IMG/VR virus record: IMGVR_UViG_3300015241_000018
Coordinates: 1-51,415 of that record
Direction: 5' to 3' (one strand)
DNA: 51,415 nucleotides
Source of the DNA: a virus
The translations under genes and the position numbers were made by a program. The stretch's first letter is position 1. Every line of letters begins with the position of its first letter. Positions 3,165 to 47,564 of this stretch are shown here, piece after piece. Under the pieces are notes generated by a model. It was not told the origin of the DNA, ran no database searches, and saw only the letters and a program-made list of their open reading frames with translations.

Positions 3165-3347
3165 ATGACTAAGCATACCATGCCTAGATTCGCCATACTG
3201 GTTACACGAGACGATAACAATTGGTGGCACTACGTATTAGTGGTGGACTACAAGACCACTACTACTACGGGTCCATTCGAAACAGCTGACTCTGCATTCA
3301 AGGCAGCGAAGAACGATGCCAATAGGAAGGGATTGTTACCGGTATGA
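3165..3347 (+). CDS. Hypothetical protein, 60 aa
   Basis: ATG after a CAGGGGAATACAA ribosome site. Short soluble product with a WWHYVLVVDY strand and a run of five Thr; predicted small alpha/beta fold. The last bases overlap the start of the NYN nuclease gene (ATGA), suggesting coupled translation. Confidence 0.6.
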   Translation: MTKHTMPRFAILVTRDDNNWWHYVLVVDYKTTTTTGPFETADSAFKAAKNDANRKGLLPV

Positions 3348-3931
3348 AACAGTACGATCGTAAGCGATACGGTCTGTTCATTGATGGGTCTAACCTGTAC
3401 GCTTCAGCTAAGGCCCTCGGTTTCCGAGTGGACTTCTCCAAGATCCACTCTCATTTCTCTAGCATGGGTGACGTAGCCCATGCCATGTACTTCACAGCCC
3501 TGCCACCTAAGACGGTGGAGTCTCCATTGCGTAGGATGGTAGACTTCGTGGAGTACAATGAGTTTACTTTGGTCTCCAAGGAGACTCATACTCACTACGA
3601 TTCAGACAATACACCACGATTGAAGGGGAATATGGATGTTGAGATCGCAGTCTATATGGAGGAGGTTGCTGGTACCCTTACTGATGTCGTTCTGTTCAGC
3701 GGTGACGGCGACTTTCGTTGTCTCATTGAGTCCGTACAGCGTCGTTTCGGTGTCCACGTCACGGTCATATCCACTCGTAGTCTGGTATCGGATGCGCTGC
3801 GACGACAAGCCAACAAGTACATTGACTTGTCCACACTCAAAGACAAGTTCATTCATCAGGCCGATGTGGTCAAGGTGAGTGAAGAAATTAAAGAGAAGCG
3901 TCGTCGGTTCTTGTTCGGCAAAGGGGAATAA
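3344..3931 (+). CDS. NYN-domain (LabA/DUF88-like) putative RNase, 195 aa
   Basis: Residues 9-170 fit the NYN/LabA-like PIN-fold family. Visible markers are FIDGSNLY (Asp14, Asn17), KGNMDVEIAVYME (Asp98) and LFSGDGDF (Asp121, Asp123), which supply the acidic metal-binding set. Family members are metal-dependent RNases or RNA-binding proteins in the cytoplasm. The C-terminus is a Lys/Arg-rich tail. The start overlaps the upstream gene (ATGA) and an AAGGGGAATA site follows for the next gene. In an early operon it may degrade host RNA, but the substrate is unknown. Confidence 0.8.
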   Translation: MKQYDRKRYGLFIDGSNLYASAKALGFRVDFSKIHSHFSSMGDVAHAMYFTALPPKTVESPLRRMVDFVEYNEFTLVSKETHTHYDSDNTPRLKGNMDVEIAVYMEEVAGTLTDVVLFSGDGDFRCLIESVQRRFGVHVTVISTRSLVSDALRRQANKYIDLSTLKDKFIHQADVVKVSEEIKEKRRRFLFGKGE

Positions 3932-10179: not shown

Positions 10180-10369
10180 TGATGAGCGATGCACAATAAC
10201 CGGACATATTACTAAGTCCAGGTCTAAATACTACAGGAACGGAGAAGTCCACACAATTATGTATACTTCATTAACAAGTTATCCTTCTGGCCCGGATATG
10301 GGTCCCTACTATTTGGCTCGTAACCAGATGGGCTATTACTTTAAGTGCATGGTGGCACAACGAGCATGA
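10160..10369 (+). CDS. Hypothetical protein, 69 aa
   Basis: Fills the gap between primase-helicase and uracil-DNA glycosylase, overlapping the former by 20 bases and the latter by 4 (ATGA). The start at 10160 follows GGTGGCAG; in-frame ATGs at 10115 and 10136 have no ribosome site. The product begins LQWSLDDERCTITGHI and has many Tyr residues, giving a small beta-rich protein. No family recognised. Confidence 0.6.
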   Translation: MLQWSLDDERCTITGHITKSRSKYYRNGEVHTIMYTSLTSYPSGPDMGPYYLARNQMGYYFKCMVAQRA

Positions 10370-11181
10370 ACTATCCGTGGAAACTAGATTTCTGGCAATC
10401 AGGGGAATGGCAGGTAGTCAATGAGCGTCTCAAAGAGTTTGACAAGTTGGGTGTGGTTTATAATCCGAAACGGTCGGCGTTGTTCCGAGCTCTTTCGCTC
10501 ACATCGTTGGAACAAACGAAGGTTGTTATACTTGGGCAGGACCCCTACCCAGACCCCAAGCTCGCAACGGGGTTATCCTTTTCTATCCCGAGAGGATTTG
10601 GACCAGGTTCTTTTCCGCCCACTCTGCGAACCATCTTCAATGAGTACACCAATGACCTCAAATACCCCACTCCTAGTCACGGTGACCTCGAAGTATGGGC
10701 AACACAAGGCGTGCTTCTATGGAACGCAATCCCAAGTTGTCAAGCAGGTAAATCACTTTCTCATGACTGGCCGGGAAATGAGTGGGGATACCTTACCAAA
10801 GAAATCGTTGAGCGATGCGCTAGGAAGGGCATTGTGTTTGCGTTACTTGGAGCTGTGGCTAAAAGATATTCAGAATTAATTGATTTAAGTAATAATGAGG
10901 TAATCTTAACATCTCATCCCTCTCCACGTGGTAGTCGTAATTCAAGGACCCCATTCGAAGGGTCCAGACTATTCTCCACGATCAACGCTAAACTAATATC
11001 TCAAGGTTTGACTCCGATCGACTGGAGACTGGATGATGTTCAAGATCAACGAGACAAAGGTAATCCGAAGGTTCTCCCCCAATCTGGTCGCGTCTGGGAT
11101 AGTAACCGACGTTTATCATGGGAGAAAGGGCCGGATACTCGTGGAGTTCGAGACCACGGAAGGTTGGTTGTGCATGAGTGA
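10366..11181 (+). CDS. ung: Uracil-DNA glycosylase, family 1, with extended tail, 271 aa
   Basis: Removes uracil from DNA. Family-1 hallmarks are GQDPYP (57-62, catalytic Asp59), LLWN (117-120) with the uracil-selecting Asn120, and HPSP (184-187) with catalytic His184. Two usual residues differ: GQDPYH reads GQDPYP, and the Leu after HPSP that inserts into DNA is Arg188. The normal C-terminus TPIDW is at 216-220; another 51 residues follow and overlap the next gene in another frame. The start overlaps the upstream stop (ATGA). Confidence 0.9.
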   Translation: MNYPWKLDFWQSGEWQVVNERLKEFDKLGVVYNPKRSALFRALSLTSLEQTKVVILGQDPYPDPKLATGLSFSIPRGFGPGSFPPTLRTIFNEYTNDLKYPTPSHGDLEVWATQGVLLWNAIPSCQAGKSLSHDWPGNEWGYLTKEIVERCARKGIVFALLGAVAKRYSELIDLSNNEVILTSHPSPRGSRNSRTPFEGSRLFSTINAKLISQGLTPIDWRLDDVQDQRDKGNPKVLPQSGRVWDSNRRLSWEKGPDTRGVRDHGRLVVHE

Positions 11182-12463: not shown

Positions 12464-13435
12464 ATGGCTAAGCCAAAGCCTATTCCCGTTCCCATCAAGA
12501 TCATCAGCACAGAGGAACTCGAAGCTAACCGAGCAGCCCTAGCTGAACTCAACAAGGAACTTCTTCCTGAGCCTGAGGCAGGTGCTCTGTCCTTCCTGCG
12601 TAAGAGCATTGATGTTCCTACGACAGCTGAAGTCAAGGACATGATCCATCAGGAGATAATGGAGTACAATGTTCTCACAAATATTGAACTCAAGATTGGT
12701 GAGGAGATCAAGACTCTTCCAGAAGAGCCGAGACACTTTCTCTTCCCTGAAATCTTGGCGGCCACCAACGCGGACATACCAGCTGCTCTTGTGGGCCCTG
12801 CTGGTTCTGGTAAATCTACTCTTTGTGAACAAGTGGCTACCGCTCTGAGTCTGAAGTACTTCCTTCAGAACAGTGTGAGTGGTGATCACCAGCTCGCAGG
12901 GTATATGGATGCACACGGTCACTACCAGACTACATCATTCCGAACTGCGTTCGAGATGGGTGGACTGTTGTTGATCGATGAGGTTGATACCTCTGATGCT
13001 GGTGCCCTGAAGTGGGTGAACACTGCCTTGGCCAATGGTCACGCCATGTTCCCCGACAAGCCTGAGCCTGTGCGTAGACACAAGGACTTCCGCATCATGA
13101 TTGCCGCCAATACCTTCGGCAATGGTGCTGACCGACTGTACGTTGGTGCCAATCAGTTGGATGCCAGTACCTTGGATCGGTTTGTGTTCTTCGACTTCGT
13201 CTATGACGAGAAGTTGGAGACCATGTTGTCCGGTAATCTTCTATGGGCCAAGCGTGTGCAGAACCTGCGTAAGGCAGCTGCCACTGAGAAGGCTCGTATC
13301 GTCATCTCTCCCCGAGCTACCATCAATGGAGCCAAGCTCTTGGCTGTCGGTTGGAAGCAGTCAGTGGTTGAAGACCGCTTGATTTGGAAGGGTATCGATG
13401 AGGAACTGAAGAATAGAATTCGGAAGGCAGCCTGA
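12464..13435 (+). CDS. MoxR/CobS-type AAA+ ATPase, 323 aa
   Basis: Strong TAAGGAGG ribosome site. After a helical N-terminus, Walker A GPAGSGKST is at 111-119, Walker B LLLIDEVD at 168-175 and the sensor AANTFGNG near 216-223; this pattern belongs to the MoxR/CobS branch (AAA_5-like). Such ATPases remodel proteins or load metal together with a von Willebrand A-type partner gene next door. Here the adjacent gene overlaps (TGATG) and shows a VWA-like pattern. Phage substrates of these pairs are unknown. Confidence 0.85.
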   Translation: MAKPKPIPVPIKIISTEELEANRAALAELNKELLPEPEAGALSFLRKSIDVPTTAEVKDMIHQEIMEYNVLTNIELKIGEEIKTLPEEPRHFLFPEILAATNADIPAALVGPAGSGKSTLCEQVATALSLKYFLQNSVSGDHQLAGYMDAHGHYQTTSFRTAFEMGGLLLIDEVDTSDAGALKWVNTALANGHAMFPDKPEPVRRHKDFRIMIAANTFGNGADRLYVGANQLDASTLDRFVFFDFVYDEKLETMLSGNLLWAKRVQNLRKAAATEKARIVISPRATINGAKLLAVGWKQSVVEDRLIWKGIDEELKNRIRKAA

Positions 13436-14442
13436 TGCAGATGTTATCTGGCAACGCCAAAGAATTGAATGATCTCATCCCCAAGCAGGCTTGGAGTTCA
13501 ACTTGGGATAGCCCTGAAACATTCGGAAGACACATCGCATCACTAGACAAGAAGAAAGCTTGGACTGATGCAGGTTGGAGTGGAGACAAAGATTTCTGTG
13601 GCACCGACGACATGGATGAAGCTCTCCGACTATCTCAGAATGGTTGGAAGGAAGGTGTGGCAGGCATTGAGAGGCTCAGAACTAAGATCCTCGCAATGAA
13701 CCCCACCCATCCTAAGATCAAGAAGTACTCTATCGCTGGGTCCTACCCTGATGTGGCTCGTGCTGTATCAGGTAACCCCATGAACATGAGAACTCTTGAC
13801 TCAGCTAAGTCCAGGCGTAGACCTGTGATCACGCTGCTCTCCAACATGTCAGCTAACTGTAATGTGGCTAAGGAGTCCATCACCAACAGAGCATCTGTCG
13901 TAGCTGCAATCATAGATCAGATTGAAGCTGCGGGTTATGCTTGTGAGGTGGTTGCTATTGCACCTACCTCAGGCAGTACTTGGGATGGAAAGCCAGGATA
14001 CAGCGCTTGCACATCTGTGATGGTCAAGCGAAGTAACCAAGCTGTCGATCTAAGTCGACTATCTTTTGGCATGGGTCATGCAGCCATGTTCAGACGCATG
14101 GTATTTGCTGACTGGGGTTCTTCTGAACCTAATAAGGAAGGACTCGGTCGTGGCTTAGGTCACAGTCACAACATCACGGATGAGTTCGTCGATGACCTGA
14201 ACTTCAAGAACATCTACGTTCTACCTTCAGCAGAAGGGAACAGTTCTAAGTTCAAGACGGAAGACGTCGCAGCTATTGTTGGTCTGAGGTTGATTGTGGA
14301 CTCACTCAAGAAACAGGGATGCCCAGCGTTTGCTGGGCCTCTCACTCCTGATATTCCATTAACTGATGCTCAGAAACAAATCCATACCATCAGAACCATT
14401 AAAGATCTCGTGGGAGACATCATAGACGGTCTTGAATTCTAA
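13435..14442 (+). CDS. Putative partner of the MoxR/CobS-type ATPase (VWA-like), 335 aa
   Basis: The ATG overlaps the ATPase stop. Residues 1-125 include AGSYPDVARAVSGNPMNM, a pattern I associate with phage proteins found beside CobS-like ATPases. From residue 131, VITLLSNMSANCNVAKESI and then a helix and AACEVVAI-like strand resemble the first half of a VWA domain, but the metal-binding DxSxS reads SNMSA (136-140), so metal binding is probably lost. Inference: adaptor that links the ATPase to its substrate. No direct evidence of activity. Confidence 0.6.
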   Translation: MQMLSGNAKELNDLIPKQAWSSTWDSPETFGRHIASLDKKKAWTDAGWSGDKDFCGTDDMDEALRLSQNGWKEGVAGIERLRTKILAMNPTHPKIKKYSIAGSYPDVARAVSGNPMNMRTLDSAKSRRRPVITLLSNMSANCNVAKESITNRASVVAAIIDQIEAAGYACEVVAIAPTSGSTWDGKPGYSACTSVMVKRSNQAVDLSRLSFGMGHAAMFRRMVFADWGSSEPNKEGLGRGLGHSHNITDEFVDDLNFKNIYVLPSAEGNSSKFKTEDVAAIVGLRLIVDSLKKQGCPAFAGPLTPDIPLTDAQKQIHTIRTIKDLVGDIIDGLEF

Positions 14443-16439: not shown

Positions 16440-16585
16440 TTAAAGATATTGATGATCTATTAAATAGATTGGATGATCCCTCTAATACAGATGAATACGG
16501 AGACTGGTCCTTTAGATTTTCTGATGTTGAAAGAGATTTAATTATTGATGCATTAATACTTTACAAGGAGATGAATATTAAGTAA
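16436..16585 (+). CDS. Hypothetical acidic protein, 49 aa
   Basis: TTG start overlapping the polymerase stop (TTGA), 9 nt after GGAG, and ending in TAATG, where the stop overlaps the next start. Sequence begins IKDIDDLLNRLDDPSN and ends ERDLIIDALILYKEMNIK, giving an acidic helical protein. Tight packing between polymerase and SSB supports it being real. Confidence 0.6.
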   Translation: MIKDIDDLLNRLDDPSNTDEYGDWSFRFSDVERDLIIDALILYKEMNIK

Positions 16586-17079
16586 TGGTATTTTACGGCA
16601 AGACAGAAACAATATACATACAAGGTAAGGTGGCTTGGTTCAAGCCTAACATACCTAATAAGTGGGATAAGTATTCTGTACAGATACACCCACAGCCTAA
16701 GGACTTGGAAGTCATCCGTGACTTACAGGCCAGAGGTCTTAAAAATCAAATGAAGAAAGACGATGATGGTTATTTCATACATTTCACACGACCTATATCC
16801 AAGCGATTTCAATCGGGTAAGATACGGGTATTCGAGCCCATCGAGGTATTCGACAAAGCTGGTGTTCCTTACGATGGTCCTGTTGGTAACGGATCAGATG
16901 CGACCCTGAAGATTGAAGTCTACGAGCATGAAGTTCCCGGTGGTGGTAAATCTGTTGCTGCCAGGTGGGTGTCAGCTCGTATCGATAACTTAGTTCCTTA
17001 CGAACCTGATCGGGACCTCACGGAAGGTCAACGCGAAGCCGCAGCAGGTTTGAAAGAGCAGCCAGAACAACTCTTCTGA
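16585..17079 (+). CDS. Single-stranded DNA-binding protein, T7 gp2.5-like, 164 aa
   Basis: Position beside the polymerase and the pattern KVAWFKPNIPNKWDKYSVQ, NGSDATLKIEVYEHEV and WVSARIDNLVPYEP match phage OB-fold ssDNA-binding proteins. The acidic Glu/Gln-rich tail ends in Phe, like T7 gp2.5, where the terminal Phe contacts polymerase and helicase. Coats exposed single strands at the fork and in recombination. The start overlaps the upstream stop. Confidence 0.8.
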   Translation: MVFYGKTETIYIQGKVAWFKPNIPNKWDKYSVQIHPQPKDLEVIRDLQARGLKNQMKKDDDGYFIHFTRPISKRFQSGKIRVFEPIEVFDKAGVPYDGPVGNGSDATLKIEVYEHEVPGGGKSVAARWVSARIDNLVPYEPDRDLTEGQREAAAGLKEQPEQLF

Positions 17080-17380
17080 CCGTTGGAGTGCTAAACACTT
17101 TTCAACAAACAGATCGCTAAGAAGCGAGCCGGGGAAAAGTTGTTCTAGCTTTACTAGGAGTCGACCGTGGGTGAAAACTCTTCCCGTGAAGATTGGGTAA
17201 GTCCCTGCACCCCGAGAGAATAACGGCGCTCTCCGTATTATTTAACACCAGCAACGCGAACCCTCCCCGCTCCGGGATACCCCAACCTCCCGCAGGACTC
17301 AGGTGCCTGGTTGCTGTGACTGCCTCGTATAGCCAGGCAGACCAAGAGACCGTTTGACCGTTCGTCTGCTAAAACGGTAG

Positions 17381-17475
17381 AGTATCATCCTACTGGGAAT
17401 ATAGCTGTTCGGGTGACGCCCCAGAACTTCGTCAGCAATAGACCATGAGTGTGGGTGCAATCCCCACTGGCACTA
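17381..17475 (+). ncRNA. tRNA-like element 1 (class II-like, non-canonical)
   Basis: T-arm GTGGG-TGCAATC-CCCAC at 17451-17467 is followed by TGGCACT, which pairs with AGTATCA (17381-17387) at six of seven positions. Between them lie a 3-bp D-like arm with GG in its loop (17390-17404), a bulged hairpin 17407-17427 and a short GTC/GAC variable-arm-like stem. Not a canonical tRNA. Confidence 0.3.
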
Positions 17476-17642
17476 CTACGGTGGCGAACCTAATAGGAGT
17501 GCATGGTGAGCAAGACAGTGAGCGAAGGTAGCGTGAGCGCCAGCACATGTGTATCATTAACACAATGACTGTCAGATCAAATAGATGTCGCGTATGCTAG
17601 GGTCGGTAGTGACCGATGCTATAACCTCTGTAGAGGGCGCGT

Positions 17643-17743
17643 ATGAGGGTAAAGGCCTTGCCTTAACTGGCTAGAGTGTCTGAAGCGATAGTAGGTGGTA
17701 GAATTAGATGTCCAACCGGAGAGTTCGATCCTCTCCCCCCGTG
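17643..17743 (+). ncRNA. tRNA-like element 2 (T-arm with weak remainder)
   Basis: T-arm GAGAG-TTCGATC-CTCTC at 17719-17735 has a classic T-loop. The following CCCCCGT pairs with ATGAGGG (17643-17649) at six of seven positions, and TA follows as expected for positions 8-9. D and anticodon arms are not convincing. Confidence 0.25.
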
Positions 17744-17780
17744 TATCGGGGACTGGCGGCTGTAGGACTGGACCACTTGG

Positions 17781-17857
17781 TATGTGGAGGTTCGTGGACT
17801 AGGGATATACACATGGGGTGCAACCTGTGCATGTCAGTTCAAGTCTGACCCGGATAT
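17781..17857 (+). ncRNA. tRNA-like element 3 (tRNA-sized)
   Basis: T-arm GTCAG-TTCAAGT-CTGAC at 17833-17849. CCGGATA (17850-17856) pairs with TATGTGG (17781-17787) at six of seven positions; the span is 76 nt. D-like arm GTTC/GGAT with GG in the loop (17790-17806), and a bulged anticodon-like stem CACA/TGTG (17810-17829). The 5' strand competes with an alternative hairpin at 17773-17787 whose 7-nt loop TTGGTAT would read as a Thr (GGT) anticodon. Confidence 0.3.
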
Positions 17858-17914
17858 CGTAATGAAGTAGGACACCGATAAAAGCGAGACCCGACCGGAC
17901 AACGTCATCGGTAT

Positions 17915-18410
17915 TGGCGTTAGCTTAGCGGTAAGAGTTCACCTCTCAACTACTCTGACCCGACTGCTAGGAAGCGCGTCATCTGGACTGCGCCTTCAGG
18001 AAGCGTAGACGCAGCATTCTATGACTGTACACTGGATACCTTGTAACCTCCAGGCTATTGCAGCAGTATGTACGATGCCGGAAGGCCTTAGGATGTGGAG
18101 CAACGATTATTGATCGTCTGGCTCAATATAGACTGCGTACATTCGCAGGGATGTGGTCTTCGTACCGTTCGGATGGTAGAAAGTATGTATCACTAGGTCA
18201 GGTTCCTAGCATTGAGCATGCGACGGCCAGGATACGTAAGAGCATCAAGCAACAGACTACTGTGACTAGGTGTACCGCTCAAGGACTGTGAGCCAGAGAG
18301 CATACGCTGAATGGGTGGAGTAAGACGCCTCTAACGCTGTCTAATAACATGGATGGTAAGAGCCGCAAGCCGGTCCAGCAAGTCCATATAACTGAATTCC
18401 AGTAACGCCA
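17915..18410 (+). ncRNA. Candidate 496-nt structured RNA closed by a perfect 8-bp helix
   Basis: TGGCGTTA (17915-17922) pairs perfectly with TAACGCCA (18403-18410). Inside are hairpins GCGTC/GACGC (17976-18012), ACGAT/ATCGT (18103-18117), CTGCG/CGCAG (18133-18148), TACC/GGTA (18163-18178), CTAGG/CCTAG with a 7-nt loop (18193-18209) and ATGGA/TCCAT (18349-18387). The 5' end resembles a tRNA acceptor and D-arm (GGCGTTAGCTTAGCGGTAAGAG), but no T-arm precedes the 3' strand. No terminator is seen. A new ornate RNA is inferred. Confidence 0.4.
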
Positions 18411-18549
18411 GATAAGCGTGAATCTAGCTGATGGAGGAGCCAATGCCCAAAAGAGCCTCTCAACAGCAGCCCCAGCCTCCTTAATACAACCAAGATGGTG
18501 GGGAGTGCCGAGTACGAGTACTCCCCAAGCCACAGAAGGAGTAGATGTT

Positions 18550-18900
18550 ATGAGTAGATTTGGAGATATGATGACCATCGCGAAGATGCTCAATGACTCT
18601 AAGTCAGAGAAGCCATCTAAGCCGTGGAAGAAAGCTTCTAAGGAAAAGGATCCAATCGCTATACTGATTGAATTTCAGGAGAAGATGGATCGATATAATA
18701 AATGGCAGAAAGACCAGGAGAAGATTAACAAGAAGGAAGATAAGAAGGAACACAAAGGCTTGCTACCAGCCGACTGGTCAGTAGCCAAGCAGACAGCCTT
18801 CTTTGCCTTGGCTGGTCCACCGATAGCCATAGGATATTTATTCGGAATTATTATTCTGGTACGTATGCTCTCAGTATTTATTGTAGGATCACATGGATGA
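18550..18900 (+). CDS. Small membrane protein with charged N-terminal domain, 116 aa
   Basis: ATG at 18550 is 8 nt after AAGGAG. Residues 15-75 are very Lys/Glu rich and probably a helix or coiled coil (KEKDPIAILIEFQEKMDRYNKW). Residues 83-113 form one or two hydrophobic helices ending near the C-terminus. The upstream in-frame extension to 18418 runs over the hairpin at 18500-18526 and is rejected. Holin-like in form but not near the lysis genes; function unknown. Confidence 0.65.
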   Translation: MSRFGDMMTIAKMLNDSKSEKPSKPWKKASKEKDPIAILIEFQEKMDRYNKWQKDQEKINKKEDKKEHKGLLPADWSVAKQTAFFALAGPPIAIGYLFGIIILVRMLSVFIVGSHG

Positions 18901-19064
18901 TAAGATGTGAATACTGCACACAACCTGAAGAAGAATTATTGAAGCTAGATAAAGAACTATTAGAAATGAAAGAGTTAATACTAAAAGGTGATAAAAGATA
19001 TAAACACATTAATCCCGGACATCTACAAGCTAGTAGGCGGGAAGGAGAATTGGCTACAAGGTGA
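18897..19064 (+). CDS. Small CxxC coiled-coil protein, 55 aa
   Basis: The ATG overlaps the preceding stop (ATGA). MIRCEYCTQPEEE carries a CxxC that could hold half a zinc site, followed by a Leu/Glu/Lys helix (LLKLDKELLEMKELILKG) and KRYKHINPG. It overlaps the nuclease gene by 77 bases in another frame. Short, but well placed. Confidence 0.55.
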   Translation: MIRCEYCTQPEEELLKLDKELLEMKELILKGDKRYKHINPGHLQASRREGELATR

Positions 19065-19854
19065 CATCGCTAATCAGTTCACAACTGAACTCACTATTAA
19101 ACTCCAAGGATCCCTTGAAGAGAAAGGCAGCCCTAGGCTACGTCTCTCAGGTATGGGCCCAAAGTGCCACTGCGCACTGTGGCACTCAATACATTCCGCA
19201 ATGGATGCGGAACCACTCCCCCCTTGGGCTAAAATCAAATACACCTACGGACACATACTTGAAGCGCTTGTAATCGCAATGGCCAAGGCTGCCGGCCATG
19301 AAGTAACAGGAGAACAGGATGCTGTATCTGTTGACGGGATCGTGGGGCATAGAGATTGTGTCATTGACGGCTGCATCGTGGACGTTAAGTCTGCTTCTAG
19401 CCGTGGCTTCCAAAAGTTCAAGGACCGTTCAATCACATCCGATGATACTTTTGGCTACTTGGATCAACTTGATGGCTATATTGTGGGGTCCCTTCATGAC
19501 CCCCTTGTTCGGGATAAAGAGCATGGCTATCTATTAGCAATCGACAAAACATTAGGACATATGTGTTTATATGAGCATACTGCGCGCGAAGAAAGTATTA
19601 GAAAAAGAATTCGAGATTATAGAGATGTCGTCGCTCTTAGTAGAGCTCCACCGTGCACTTGTGAACAAGTTCCCGATGGAAAGTCCGGAAACATTAAGCT
19701 GGGCATTAGAGCAAGCTATAATGCGTTTAAGTACCAGTGTCACCCACAGCTTCGAACCTTTCTCTACGCAAGTGGACCAGTCTACCTCACCCATGTTGCC
19801 AGAAAGCCAGACGTAATTGAGATAGACAAATACGGTAAAGTAGTTTATAATTAA
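18988..19854 (+). CDS. RecB/Cas4-type PD-(D/E)XK nuclease, 288 aa
   Basis: Motifs in order: YGHILEAL (Glu92), GHRDCVIDG (Asp123), VDVKSAS (Asp132, Lys134) and YLDQLDGY (Gln160), the core of Cas4/RecB-like exonucleases. Probably degrades DNA from ends during host DNA breakdown, recombination or packaging, taking the place of T7 gp6. Cys60/Cys62 and Cys223/Cys225/Cys251 resemble the split Cys set of iron-sulphur members, but spacing is not standard. GTG start with a weak ribosome site. Confidence 0.85.
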   Translation: MIKDINTLIPDIYKLVGGKENWLQGDIANQFTTELTIKLQGSLEEKGSPRLRLSGMGPKCHCALWHSIHSAMDAEPLPPWAKIKYTYGHILEALVIAMAKAAGHEVTGEQDAVSVDGIVGHRDCVIDGCIVDVKSASSRGFQKFKDRSITSDDTFGYLDQLDGYIVGSLHDPLVRDKEHGYLLAIDKTLGHMCLYEHTAREESIRKRIRDYRDVVALSRAPPCTCEQVPDGKSGNIKLGIRASYNAFKYQCHPQLRTFLYASGPVYLTHVARKPDVIEIDKYGKVVYN

Positions 19855-45895: not shown

Positions 45896-45996
45896 TAGTG
45901 ATACCCAATTCCAAATAAGACATCTCTAAATGCCCAACCAATATAAGCTATTGCAGCTAGTAAAGCTAGGAATAAGACTGGGCCTACTAATCTCAT
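45895..45996 (-). CDS. Small membrane protein, 33 aa
   Basis: Starts inside the terminase stop (ATGA) with CGGAGGTGTGGT upstream and ends in TAATG at the portal start. Almost entirely one transmembrane helix (MRLVGPVLFLALLAAIAYIG). Function unknown; the good ribosome site supports expression. Confidence 0.55.
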   Translation of the reverse strand: MRLVGPVLFLALLAAIAYIGWAFRDVLFGIGYH

Positions 45997-46811
45997 ACCA
46001 CACCTCCGAATTTACCATGGTAATTCCATAAAGGAGTAGCACCTCTGCGTACATTGTAATAATTCATGGGAGGGTGTGCAAAATCTATTGCAGATGCAAG
46101 AGCATCCTTAACATCATCGTGAGCTGGGTTAGTGTAAAGCAATTCTTCCTCTAATACCTGGCAATTACCGGCTTGGTAGTGCCATATTTGTCTATTGGCG
46201 TATTTAGGTTCTAAAATGGAGAATATCCTCTCTTCCTTGGAACCAATCCAGCGAGAGGGTCTATATTCATCTACTGAAAGAGACAAACCATTAGGTCTGA
46301 TGTAGTTTTCCTTCAGATCGTCTACGATGACCTTCTGAGCTACGCTGACTTCGGCTCGTATCTTCCTGAAGCCCCATTTCTCATAGAGTTTCAGTATGTG
46401 TTGGAAATATTCAGATATTTTAGTAGTTCTGAAGCGATCTATTTCGAGAATATAATAATTATTAAGACCATCAACACCCAGTACCACAATACTAGTGTAA
46501 TCAGACTTTTTTCCTGTTGAATACGCAAAGTCAACGGATGCAACGATGTTAAGGCGTTCTCGCTTAAAGAACCAGGTGTAATCTTTACGGGACAGATAGT
46601 TCTGGTCGTAGTATTGGAATAAATCTCTTTGGATGGGGGACGAGTCCACATCATGTGGGTCGTTGTAGTATTGGGCCCTAAAGTGTATCTTGTTGAGGTA
46701 TTGAGCCCTCTTTTTAGCCAGAATGTCTGAGTCGAACCCAAACCATTTACCATCTGAGCGCTGTTGTTTTGGCCAGATGAACTGTCCTGTACCGTCTCCC
46801 GCGGTTTCCAC
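45993..46811 (-). CDS. Large terminase, C-terminal nuclease part (after in-frame TAA), 272 aa
   Basis: RNase H-like nuclease half of the packaging motor: NIVASVDFAYSTGKKSDYTS (Asp94, Asp104), a mid-domain acidic strand and HDDVKDAL (231-238) supply the metal site that cuts concatemers. It is in the same frame as the ATPase gene at 46815, separated only by TAA-CCT. The listed start is GTG at 46811 with no clear SD. So it is either a separate coupled subunit or the end of one protein made by read-through. Confidence 0.8.
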   Translation of the reverse strand: METAGDGTGQFIWPKQQRSDGKWFGFDSDILAKKRAQYLNKIHFRAQYYNDPHDVDSSPIQRDLFQYYDQNYLSRKDYTWFFKRERLNIVASVDFAYSTGKKSDYTSIVVLGVDGLNNYYILEIDRFRTTKISEYFQHILKLYEKWGFRKIRAEVSVAQKVIVDDLKENYIRPNGLSLSVDEYRPSRWIGSKEERIFSILEPKYANRQIWHYQAGNCQVLEEELLYTNPAHDDVKDALASAIDFAHPPMNYYNVRRGATPLWNYHGKFGGVV

Positions 46812-46814
46812 AGG

Positions 46815-47564
46815 TTATTCTTTACTCTCGAAAAGAGGCTCGGCTTTAACAACATTTCCGATTTCGTCGTATTCATCTACTTCCATCTCTAACAAACTGG
46901 AATACAAGTCCTTGGGGTGGTATCTAGTACCGACTACCCATTCGCGGGCATTGACAGTTTCAATAGAAGACAAGAGACTGTATTGATCTATAACCTTATT
47001 TCTTCCCTCTTCCAGATAGGCATTACTCTGGACTACGACGTCATCTAGGACCGCAATATCGCAATGCATGCCCACAATATTGGAGGTAAGGCCTGCAGTA
47101 AATATACTGGGATCGCGGATCGATTCCTCGCGTCTTCGCGGATGATCCAAGGATATTTCTCGTTCAGTCCACTTCTCTCGCTTCGCTTCTTCGGTGATGA
47201 CCATATCGGGCCAGTATAGGCGGTATACGTCATCAGTGAAGATATCCTTAATGAACTTAAGCTGCTTAGTAGCTAAATTTGATGTACTAGAAATGTATAG
47301 TACTCTGAGAGTAGGATCTCTAGTTAGTTCCCAAGCCACACGGTAAGCTATCAAAGCTGACTTCATGTGGTCTCTAGGTAACAATAATAGCTGGTGACTC
47401 TTGGATTTACCAGAGGTCCACCAGCTGATTACTTCTCTGTGAATATTACCTAGTAGACGTTTAGGATGTACTAGATTAATGAAACTTTCTAAGTTTGCTT
47501 CAGCTAGTTCTCTACGCTCTTTCCTTCGTAATTGTAAGTCAGAGAGGGGTTTCTTCTTAGGCAT
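46815..47564 (-). CDS. Large terminase, N-terminal ATPase part, 249 aa
   Basis: Translocation ATPase. Walker A variant LLPRDHMKSA (61-70) and Walker B DIAVLDDVV (169-177), followed by a coupling-motif-like WVVGTRYHP. Ends at TAA after EPLFESKE; the next sense codons continue the same frame into the nuclease domain. Together about 520 residues, a normal TerL length. N-terminus is basic (KKKPLSDLQLRRKERRE). Overlaps the upstream gene by eight bases. Confidence 0.88.
   Translation of the reverse strand: MPKKKPLSDLQLRRKERRELAEANLESFINLVHPKRLLGNIHREVISWWTSGKSKSHQLLLLPRDHMKSALIAYRVAWELTRDPTLRVLYISSTSNLATKQLKFIKDIFTDDVYRLYWPDMVITEEAKREKWTEREISLDHPRRREESIRDPSIFTAGLTSNIVGMHCDIAVLDDVVVQSNAYLEEGRNKVIDQYSLLSSIETVNAREWVVGTRYHPKDLYSSLLEMEVDEYDEIGNVVKAEPLFESKE

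Follow-up and report, generated by a model that had tools for sequence, protein, structure and literature searches.

Few very large structured RNAs are known from bacteria and phages; OLE, GOLLD and ROOL are the examples, and what exactly each of them does is unsettled. GOLLD and ROOL are very large, ornate phage or prophage RNAs of unknown function, often found near tRNA genes, and GOLLD can carry tRNAs in a linker (available text of PMC12286853). The most common immediate downstream neighbor of OLE is the gene for the membrane protein OapA, a partner of OLE RNA that has positive charges on its cytoplasmic face (PMC12265935, in the sections at hand). Other RNAs are known to borrow from tRNA: YrlA is a tRNA mimic that tethers Rsr and PNPase (partial text of PMC8394870), Y RNAs have been suggested for abundant transcripts near an Rsr-like gene in a Listeria phage (excerpt of PMC12282133), and two-piece tmRNA contains a permuted tRNA-like domain (excerpt of PMC3985003). 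The locus compared with these systems here lies in a 51,415-nt stretch of DNA from a soil phage (hereafter, the window; IMG/VR record IMGVR_UViG_3300015241_000018). GOLLD, ROOL and OLE are the nearest kind to the RNA that we describe, and membership in each fails at the Rfam level, as their covariance models found no match in the window or in the island within it. The search covered 4227 Rfam families, none of which matched the whole window at the gathering score or the island at E≤10.

The island spans positions 17080-18549 (1.47 kb), from the stop codon of a single-stranded DNA-binding protein (SSB) at 17079 to the next ORF at 18550. The sequence-only reading of this DNA had placed it between the SSB gene and a nuclease operon; the SSB gene does lie upstream, but a 116-aa membrane-type ORF (18550-18900, + strand) precedes the nuclease gene. 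The SSB (16585-17079, + strand) is T7 gp2.5-like according to its AlphaFold model (pLDDT 80.7), whose best PDB matches were T7 gp2.5 (1je5, E 1e-6) and the Enc34 SSB; it had no PHROG match and no significant Pfam match. The downstream neighbor (18988-19854, + strand) is a Cas4-domain exonuclease (phrog_1990, E 4e-21). Stop codons in the three forward frames of 17080-18440 number 23, 28 and 29, with about 21 expected, leaving no credible long frame, and most short indels that separate relatives have lengths not divisible by three (remainders 1, 2 and 0 in 711, 387 and 292 cases). The earlier statement that the island has no convincing coding frame thus stands for long forward frames but not for one short, translated-looking ORF at 18443-18484.

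Several other genes of the window were noted in passing. The terminase large subunit (45993-47564, - strand) is seemingly split into two adjacent ORFs, of which 46815-47564 (- strand) matches the middle of phrog_38 and the other would be the second half by its position. The DNA polymerase gene is closely preceded by genes for an AAA_5 (MoxR-like) ATPase and, next to it, a DUF7192 protein (12464-14442, + strand), and the NYN-domain protein at 3344-3931 (+ strand) is possibly an RNase. The product of 10345-11181 (+ strand) is presumably a uracil-DNA glycosylase, going by the motif GQDPYPDP.

Folding energy against shuffled controls had been proposed beforehand as a check on the island, with stability no greater than shuffled sequence counting against it, and this is what we found. 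Eighteen island windows on the + strand had a mean folding z of 0.04, compared with -0.60 for 66 coding windows, and a 1000-nt island fold was weaker than all 20 of its shuffles (z +2.2). Only the 3' edge was unusually stable, with z -3.2 for the window that begins at 18400, -4.4 for that at 18475 and -3.0 for that at 18550. As support for a structured RNA, folding energy was therefore negative for both the island windows and the 1000-nt fold. Since this result alone would speak against an RNA, relatives were compared.

Searches with the SSB and the nuclease, the latter contributing the best 80 of 214 relatives, gave 103 sequences, window included. In 81 of these, the SSB gene, a gap of 0.5-5 kb and the nuclease gene follow in order, and removal of 15 overlapping copies left 66 loci; the remaining 22 were dropped with one flank missing, and several of these fragments carry the T-arms or the micro-ORF described below. 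The 66 loci are distinct IMG/VR records and not independent ones, with near copies such as L034/L045, L003/L004 and L080/L081/L083/L094. A gap between a T7-gp2.5-like SSB and a Cas4-like nuclease is found at the same place in all 66 phages, with lengths from 1465 to 4171 nt and extra ORFs in the longer ones. The sequence-only reading had argued from the cost of space in a packaged genome that the island should be functional, and had named absence from close relatives as counting against this. Its conservation at one place and on one strand, in all 66 distinct relatives open to examination, bears the argument out. Iterated nhmmer detected sequence links among only 35 of the 66 islands, and every hit was on the + strand. 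The islands of L012 and L060 differ from the rest of the family in having AGCTTA/CAAAGTT-rich repeats near a T-arm.

Seven more distant loci that carry the nuclease (L095-L097 and L099-L102) showed no T-arm, and an ORF ending in Pro-Pro-stop was present in L095 and L096 only. In the deposited, cultured phages CRP-13, CRP-4 and T5S1, the gene at the place of the SSB abuts or nearly abuts the nuclease gene and there is no island, and phiM6, likewise cultured, has other genes there; no T-loop core was found in the corresponding interval of these four genomes. The absence of the island from deposited, more distant Cobavirinae-type phages marks it as a clade-specific module. Deposited phages gave no DNA match for the window and no match for the SSB or the 18550-18900 membrane protein, and a provirus search found no relatives of the nuclease in bacterial genomes.

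To examine conserved RNA structure, we took 10 sequences from the window's clade, simulated 20 alignments on the tree of these sequences and compared the local helices of the real and simulated sets. Alignment A6 proved misaligned and is not drawn on here. The real sequences contained 53 helices (simulations: mean 17.25, maximum 27), 17 of them with at least two compensated pairs (mean 2.75, maximum 5), and 68 compensated pairs overall (mean 12.75, maximum 23). An all-pairs covariation analysis of the same 10 sequences found no pair at E≤0.05, which we attribute to the low power of so few sequences. As to the claim that the island is dense in hairpins, islands totalling 160 kb hold 389 short G-N7-C hairpins; their shuffled versions hold 156-178, and the 620 kb of flanking sequence holds 827. 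Across the family, several loops are kept while their stems vary (TTCGANN, GTGCAA/GTGAAA, CYCUGAA, CAGAUNA and GTCCAAA). The CYCUGAA heptaloop sits on 6-bp stems of changing sequence in 15 of the 15 loci listed (for example L005, L038 and L052); it could be a kissing loop. Hairpins in the window, all on the + strand, include a hairpin with a UGCAA/UGAAA-type loop and compensation in 5/5 pairs (17812-17829), one assigned by its recurrent CAGAUNA loop ahead of the micro-ORF (18405-18419), and a stable 9-bp hairpin after the micro-ORF stop with 6/9 pairs compensated (18500-18526). Conserved helices with compensatory changes, together with the conserved loops, argue for selection on RNA structure. 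We conclude that the island almost certainly encodes a structured RNA of about 1.3 kb on the + strand, at approximately 17229-18527, as judged from the alignment, nhmmer and the helix-level test. The 5' boundary is where relatives start to align, as they do not over the first ~150 nt (17080 to ~17228), and in L003 the conserved part nearly adjoins the SSB gene; the 3' boundary is the last conserved hairpin. The structured RNA itself is near certain, and its function we infer.

These results also bear on two readings that involve no functional RNA. The island sits in the replication module and phage origins can be noncoding, so a DNA-level element (a replication origin, a promoter field or a packaging site) with incidental RNA structure might be considered. 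The compensatory pairs of the helix test speak against this, as do the strand bias of the T-loops (84 on one strand and 0 on the other; see below) and the sigma-70-like sites, which are not in excess (2 found, 3.8 expected), and we consider such an element extremely improbable. A decayed tRNA array or functionless insertion could account for tRNA-like pieces without intact tRNA genes, but the stems stay paired across wide divergence and a Pro-Pro-stop ORF is retained in 66/66 loci, making the probability of decay practically negligible.

The tRNA-like pieces are a second hallmark of the islands. Hairpins resembling the tRNA T-arm, defined as G-TTCRANN-C with at least 5 bp, occur 84 times in the islands (50/66 loci), once in 620,542 flanking bases and never on the reverse strand; two control loops had counts of 1 and 2. 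A related TGCRANN class occurs 18 times in islands, once outside and never on the reverse strand; by this loop class, the window has a T-loop-like hairpin at 17451-17467 (+ strand, GTGGG-TGCAATC-CCCAC). The window also contains T-arm-like hairpin 1 (17718-17736, + strand; loop TTCGATC), with compensation in 6/6 pairs, followed by a capped acceptor-like hairpin supported by covariation (17737-17751, + strand; CCCCG-TGTAT-CGGGG); across nine phages, T-arm 1 and this capped stem have a covariation of 0.456, compared with 0.199 when shuffled. T-arm-like hairpin 2 (17833-17849, + strand; loop TTCAAGT) directly follows the hairpin at 17812-17829, and in an alignment of 16 phages 100% of its cells are paired, with compensatory change in 4/5 pairs.

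Many relatives have, after the T-arm, an acceptor stem that a short loop closes (as CTACC-GAAA-GGTAG does in L087), with a tRNA D-arm next in line. Judged by its sequence, this module is a circularly permuted tRNA, with the permutation at the acceptor and the opening at the anticodon end. In an alignment of 12 seeds picked by eye, 95.1% of cells are paired, with a covariation of 0.579 versus 0.168 for shuffled controls. A model built on this module had 66 matches at E≤1 over 779 kb, of which 63 were inside islands on the + strand, and eight non-seed matches had E<1e-6. The window matches the model at E=0.49 only, and our claim for it is therefore limited to the T-arms and the capped stem, without a D-arm. 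With a loose setting (at least 4 bp), a capped stem directly follows 46 of the 84 T-arms; random positions give 37%, so this count is weak on its own and the covariance tests were used instead. Cloverleaf tRNA genes were not found by default ARAGORN in the window or in any of the 66 gaps, allowing introns gave nothing consistent, and relaxed settings over the 66 gaps returned only scattered, low-quality tRNA matches on both strands.

The permuted module is close to YrlA, in which T-arm, capped acceptor and D-arm are likewise permuted and entered through the anticodon-side stem, as seen in the relatives and in the Rfam alignment of L065. The island might then form a phage Y RNA complex, with YrlA-like modules that tether host Rsr (Ro60-like) and PNPase and alter RNA decay, and both tethering and tRNA mimicry are on record for YrlA (available text of PMC8394870). 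When the window and 48 island records were searched for YrlA (RF02553), L065 scored best at 29.4 bits and 4/49 records had E≤0.05; however, 0/49 reached the gathering score of 69, and weak matches were also present in 10/14 control genomes. A TROVE (Rsr) protein was found in 0/35 of the island-bearing records tested and not in the window, although a host-encoded Rsr is possible. Moreover, the modules lie within an RNA of kilobase size, which often has several T-arms and exceeds YrlA (90-150 nt; PMC8394870) in length roughly tenfold. We regard a Y RNA complex as highly unlikely, and class the island RNA with the large ornate kind, built partly from Y-RNA-like modules.

The module was also searched for elsewhere in IMG/VR, where, among at least 120 stretches, 80 loci were listed with 81 matches. 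Ordinary tRNAs overlap 67 of the 81 listed matches, so most are tandem tRNAs; some others are Y-RNA-like. In one such stretch, L179:3877-4568 of another 50-kb phage contig, two YrlA-like Rfam matches and a permuted module fall within 700 nt, and a TROVE (Rsr) protein is encoded elsewhere in the genome; by its predicted content, L179 contains an array of phage Y RNAs accompanied by an Rsr of its own. The part of L179 that was searched had no SSB or nuclease match to the island-bearing family. Two further phage contigs, one of them 354 kb long, have YrlA-like matches at L124:1624-1686 and L121:2993-3101.

A tmRNA-like device, with a permuted tRNA-like domain and a tag ORF, would resemble the two-piece tmRNA of alphaproteobacteria, in which the tRNA-like domain precedes the ORF. 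The islands show the same order of T-arm, acceptor and D-arm with an ORF later on, and this ORF ends in Pro-Pro-stop, a known site of trans-translation (excerpt of PMC3985003). However, the window had no tmRNA match in Rfam or default ARAGORN, and the tmRNA mode of ARAGORN found 0/66 among the gaps. The ORF has its own start codon and Shine-Dalgarno-like motif, and the acceptor is capped and without CCA. The chance that the island is such a device is, in our judgment, very remote.

This short ORF is the third feature common to the islands. In the window, a Shine-Dalgarno-like GGAGGAG (18433-18439, + strand) precedes the micro-ORF (18443-18484, + strand), which encodes MPKRASQQQPQPP followed by a stop and is proposed, from comparison across the 66 loci, to be a termination-arrest peptide. 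The pattern CCN-CCN-stop lies near the 3' end of the island in 66/66 gaps (75 sites altogether, nine of which were set aside as extra). A strict form (ATG, Shine-Dalgarno-like motif, 6-25 codons) is present in 57/66 loci; each of 20 shuffles gave 0-2/66, and the reverse strand gave none. The micro-ORFs start with ATG (58), GTG (7) or TTG (1), are 11-33 codons long and stop with TAA (64) or TAG (2). Of the 66 peptides, 30 have Gln ahead of Pro-Pro, 25 have Arg, 4 have Glu and 7 have other residues. Gln is encoded by CAG 15 times and by CAA 15 times, all six Arg codons are used, and the third base of the first Pro codon takes all four values (T 24, A 20, G 11, C 11). The use of different codons for the same residues argues for selection on the peptide. 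Proline before a stop codon, Pro-Pro included, slows termination in bacteria (available text of PMC3985003). We also considered CCUCCUUAA as an anti-Shine-Dalgarno mimic and rejected it, as the idea has no family-wide support: the first Pro third base is free, and the predicted pairing between the downstream Shine-Dalgarno and the sequence around Pro-Pro-stop shows no covariation (4.32 observed, 4.44 permuted), exceeding 0.5 in only 6/65 loci, of which the window is one (0.58).

The gene next to the island was found in 65/66 loci. Its product is 71-132 aa long and in most cases rich in Lys and Glu, with a hydrophobic segment at the C-terminal end; the 19-residue mean hydropathy exceeds 1.6 in 50/65 of these proteins. 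In L013 and L092, the first gene found after the island is clearly not hydrophobic. Nine of the proteins aligned poorly overall, and eight had no PHROG match. In the window, this gene has a Shine-Dalgarno-like AAGGAG (18536-18541, + strand), and its product, the 116-aa protein introduced above, is Lys/Glu-rich with a C-terminal hydrophobic segment by hydropathy; it had no PHROG match and no significant Pfam match, and we propose it as a candidate RNA partner or anchor.

The proximity of the micro-ORF to this gene raises the reading that the whole island acts only in cis, as a very long leader of the operon for the membrane protein and the nuclease, and yields no separate RNA product; the micro-ORF would then encode an attenuator peptide, with the RNA upstream of it serving as a sensor. 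Termination- and proline-dependent arrest peptides such as TnaC and the RAPP peptides offer the closest comparison; they too are short leader ORFs that end in a proline motif upstream of a gene, a layout that the island resembles. The micro-ORF shares with such leaders its shortness, its own ribosome-binding site and its conserved C-terminal residues, and a hairpin lies between its stop and the next gene in most loci. However, it conserves only [Gln/Arg]-Pro-Pro at the stop and sits at the end of a giant RNA, and its stalling is our inference. Furthermore, the distance from stop to gene varies (13-192 nt), the pairing with the downstream Shine-Dalgarno lacks covariation as described above, and more than 1 kb with many conserved helices far exceeds usual leaders. 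We judge a leader to be rather unlikely.

The explanation that we prefer is a structured RNA together with a translated micro-ORF that arrests ribosomes at Pro-Pro-stop, a joint claim that is probable on the sequence comparisons. The large RNA (~17229-18527, + strand) would be transcribed together with the replication genes. Ribosomes would likely begin translation at the micro-ORF and stall when they terminate it, given the slow release after a final Pro-Pro, and the stall would park a ribosome beside the 3' hairpin, just upstream of the membrane-protein gene. With less certainty, the tRNA-elbow modules may hold host readers of the tRNA elbow, candidates being PNPase and tRNA-modifying enzymes, as for Y RNAs, and also RNase P. 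The adjacent Lys/Glu-rich protein may in turn hold the RNA at the membrane, a less certain step suggested by adjacency and by analogy with OLE, which has OapA as downstream neighbor and partner. That the RNA is a membrane scaffold is accordingly a tentative proposal, possible though somewhat doubtful.

The island RNA resembles OLE in being large and structured, with a membrane-type gene adjacent downstream. It differs in that OapA is predicted to have four transmembrane helices whereas the island neighbor has one hydrophobic segment, in that OLE belongs to Gram-positive chromosomes and the island RNA to phages, and in its tRNA-like modules and micro-ORF, which the available sections of PMC12265935 do not mention for OLE. 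Like GOLLD and ROOL, it is very large and phage-encoded, but it is longer, matches nothing in Rfam, has permuted, capped tRNA-like domains instead of tRNA genes, and comes with a conserved micro-ORF and a membrane-protein neighbor. No description of such an RNA was found in open-licence PubMed Central papers, and it looks like a class of large phage RNA not described before.

This RNA recurs in dozens of phage genomes, is longer than OLE, GOLLD and ROOL, and offers handles that those RNAs lack: a tRNA-mimic fold, which points to partners that bind the tRNA elbow, an invariant Pro-Pro-stop micro-ORF and an adjacent candidate partner protein. The [Gln/Arg]-Pro-Pro-stop sequence, kept through all codon choices, is a candidate arrest signal at termination. 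In its most ambitious form, which we hold to be unlikely as a whole, the proposal is of a giant viral RNA that would build a membrane-attached RNP through tRNA mimicry, a bound tail-anchored protein and a ribosome captured by the micro-ORF. One to three elbow modules would imitate tRNA, a dedicated tail-anchored protein would be encoded alongside, and the conserved [Gln/Arg]-Pro-Pro-stop micro-ORF would catch a host ribosome in the act of terminating and keep it on the RNA. If true, phage translation, or the seizure of translation factors, would take place at a phage-made membrane site.
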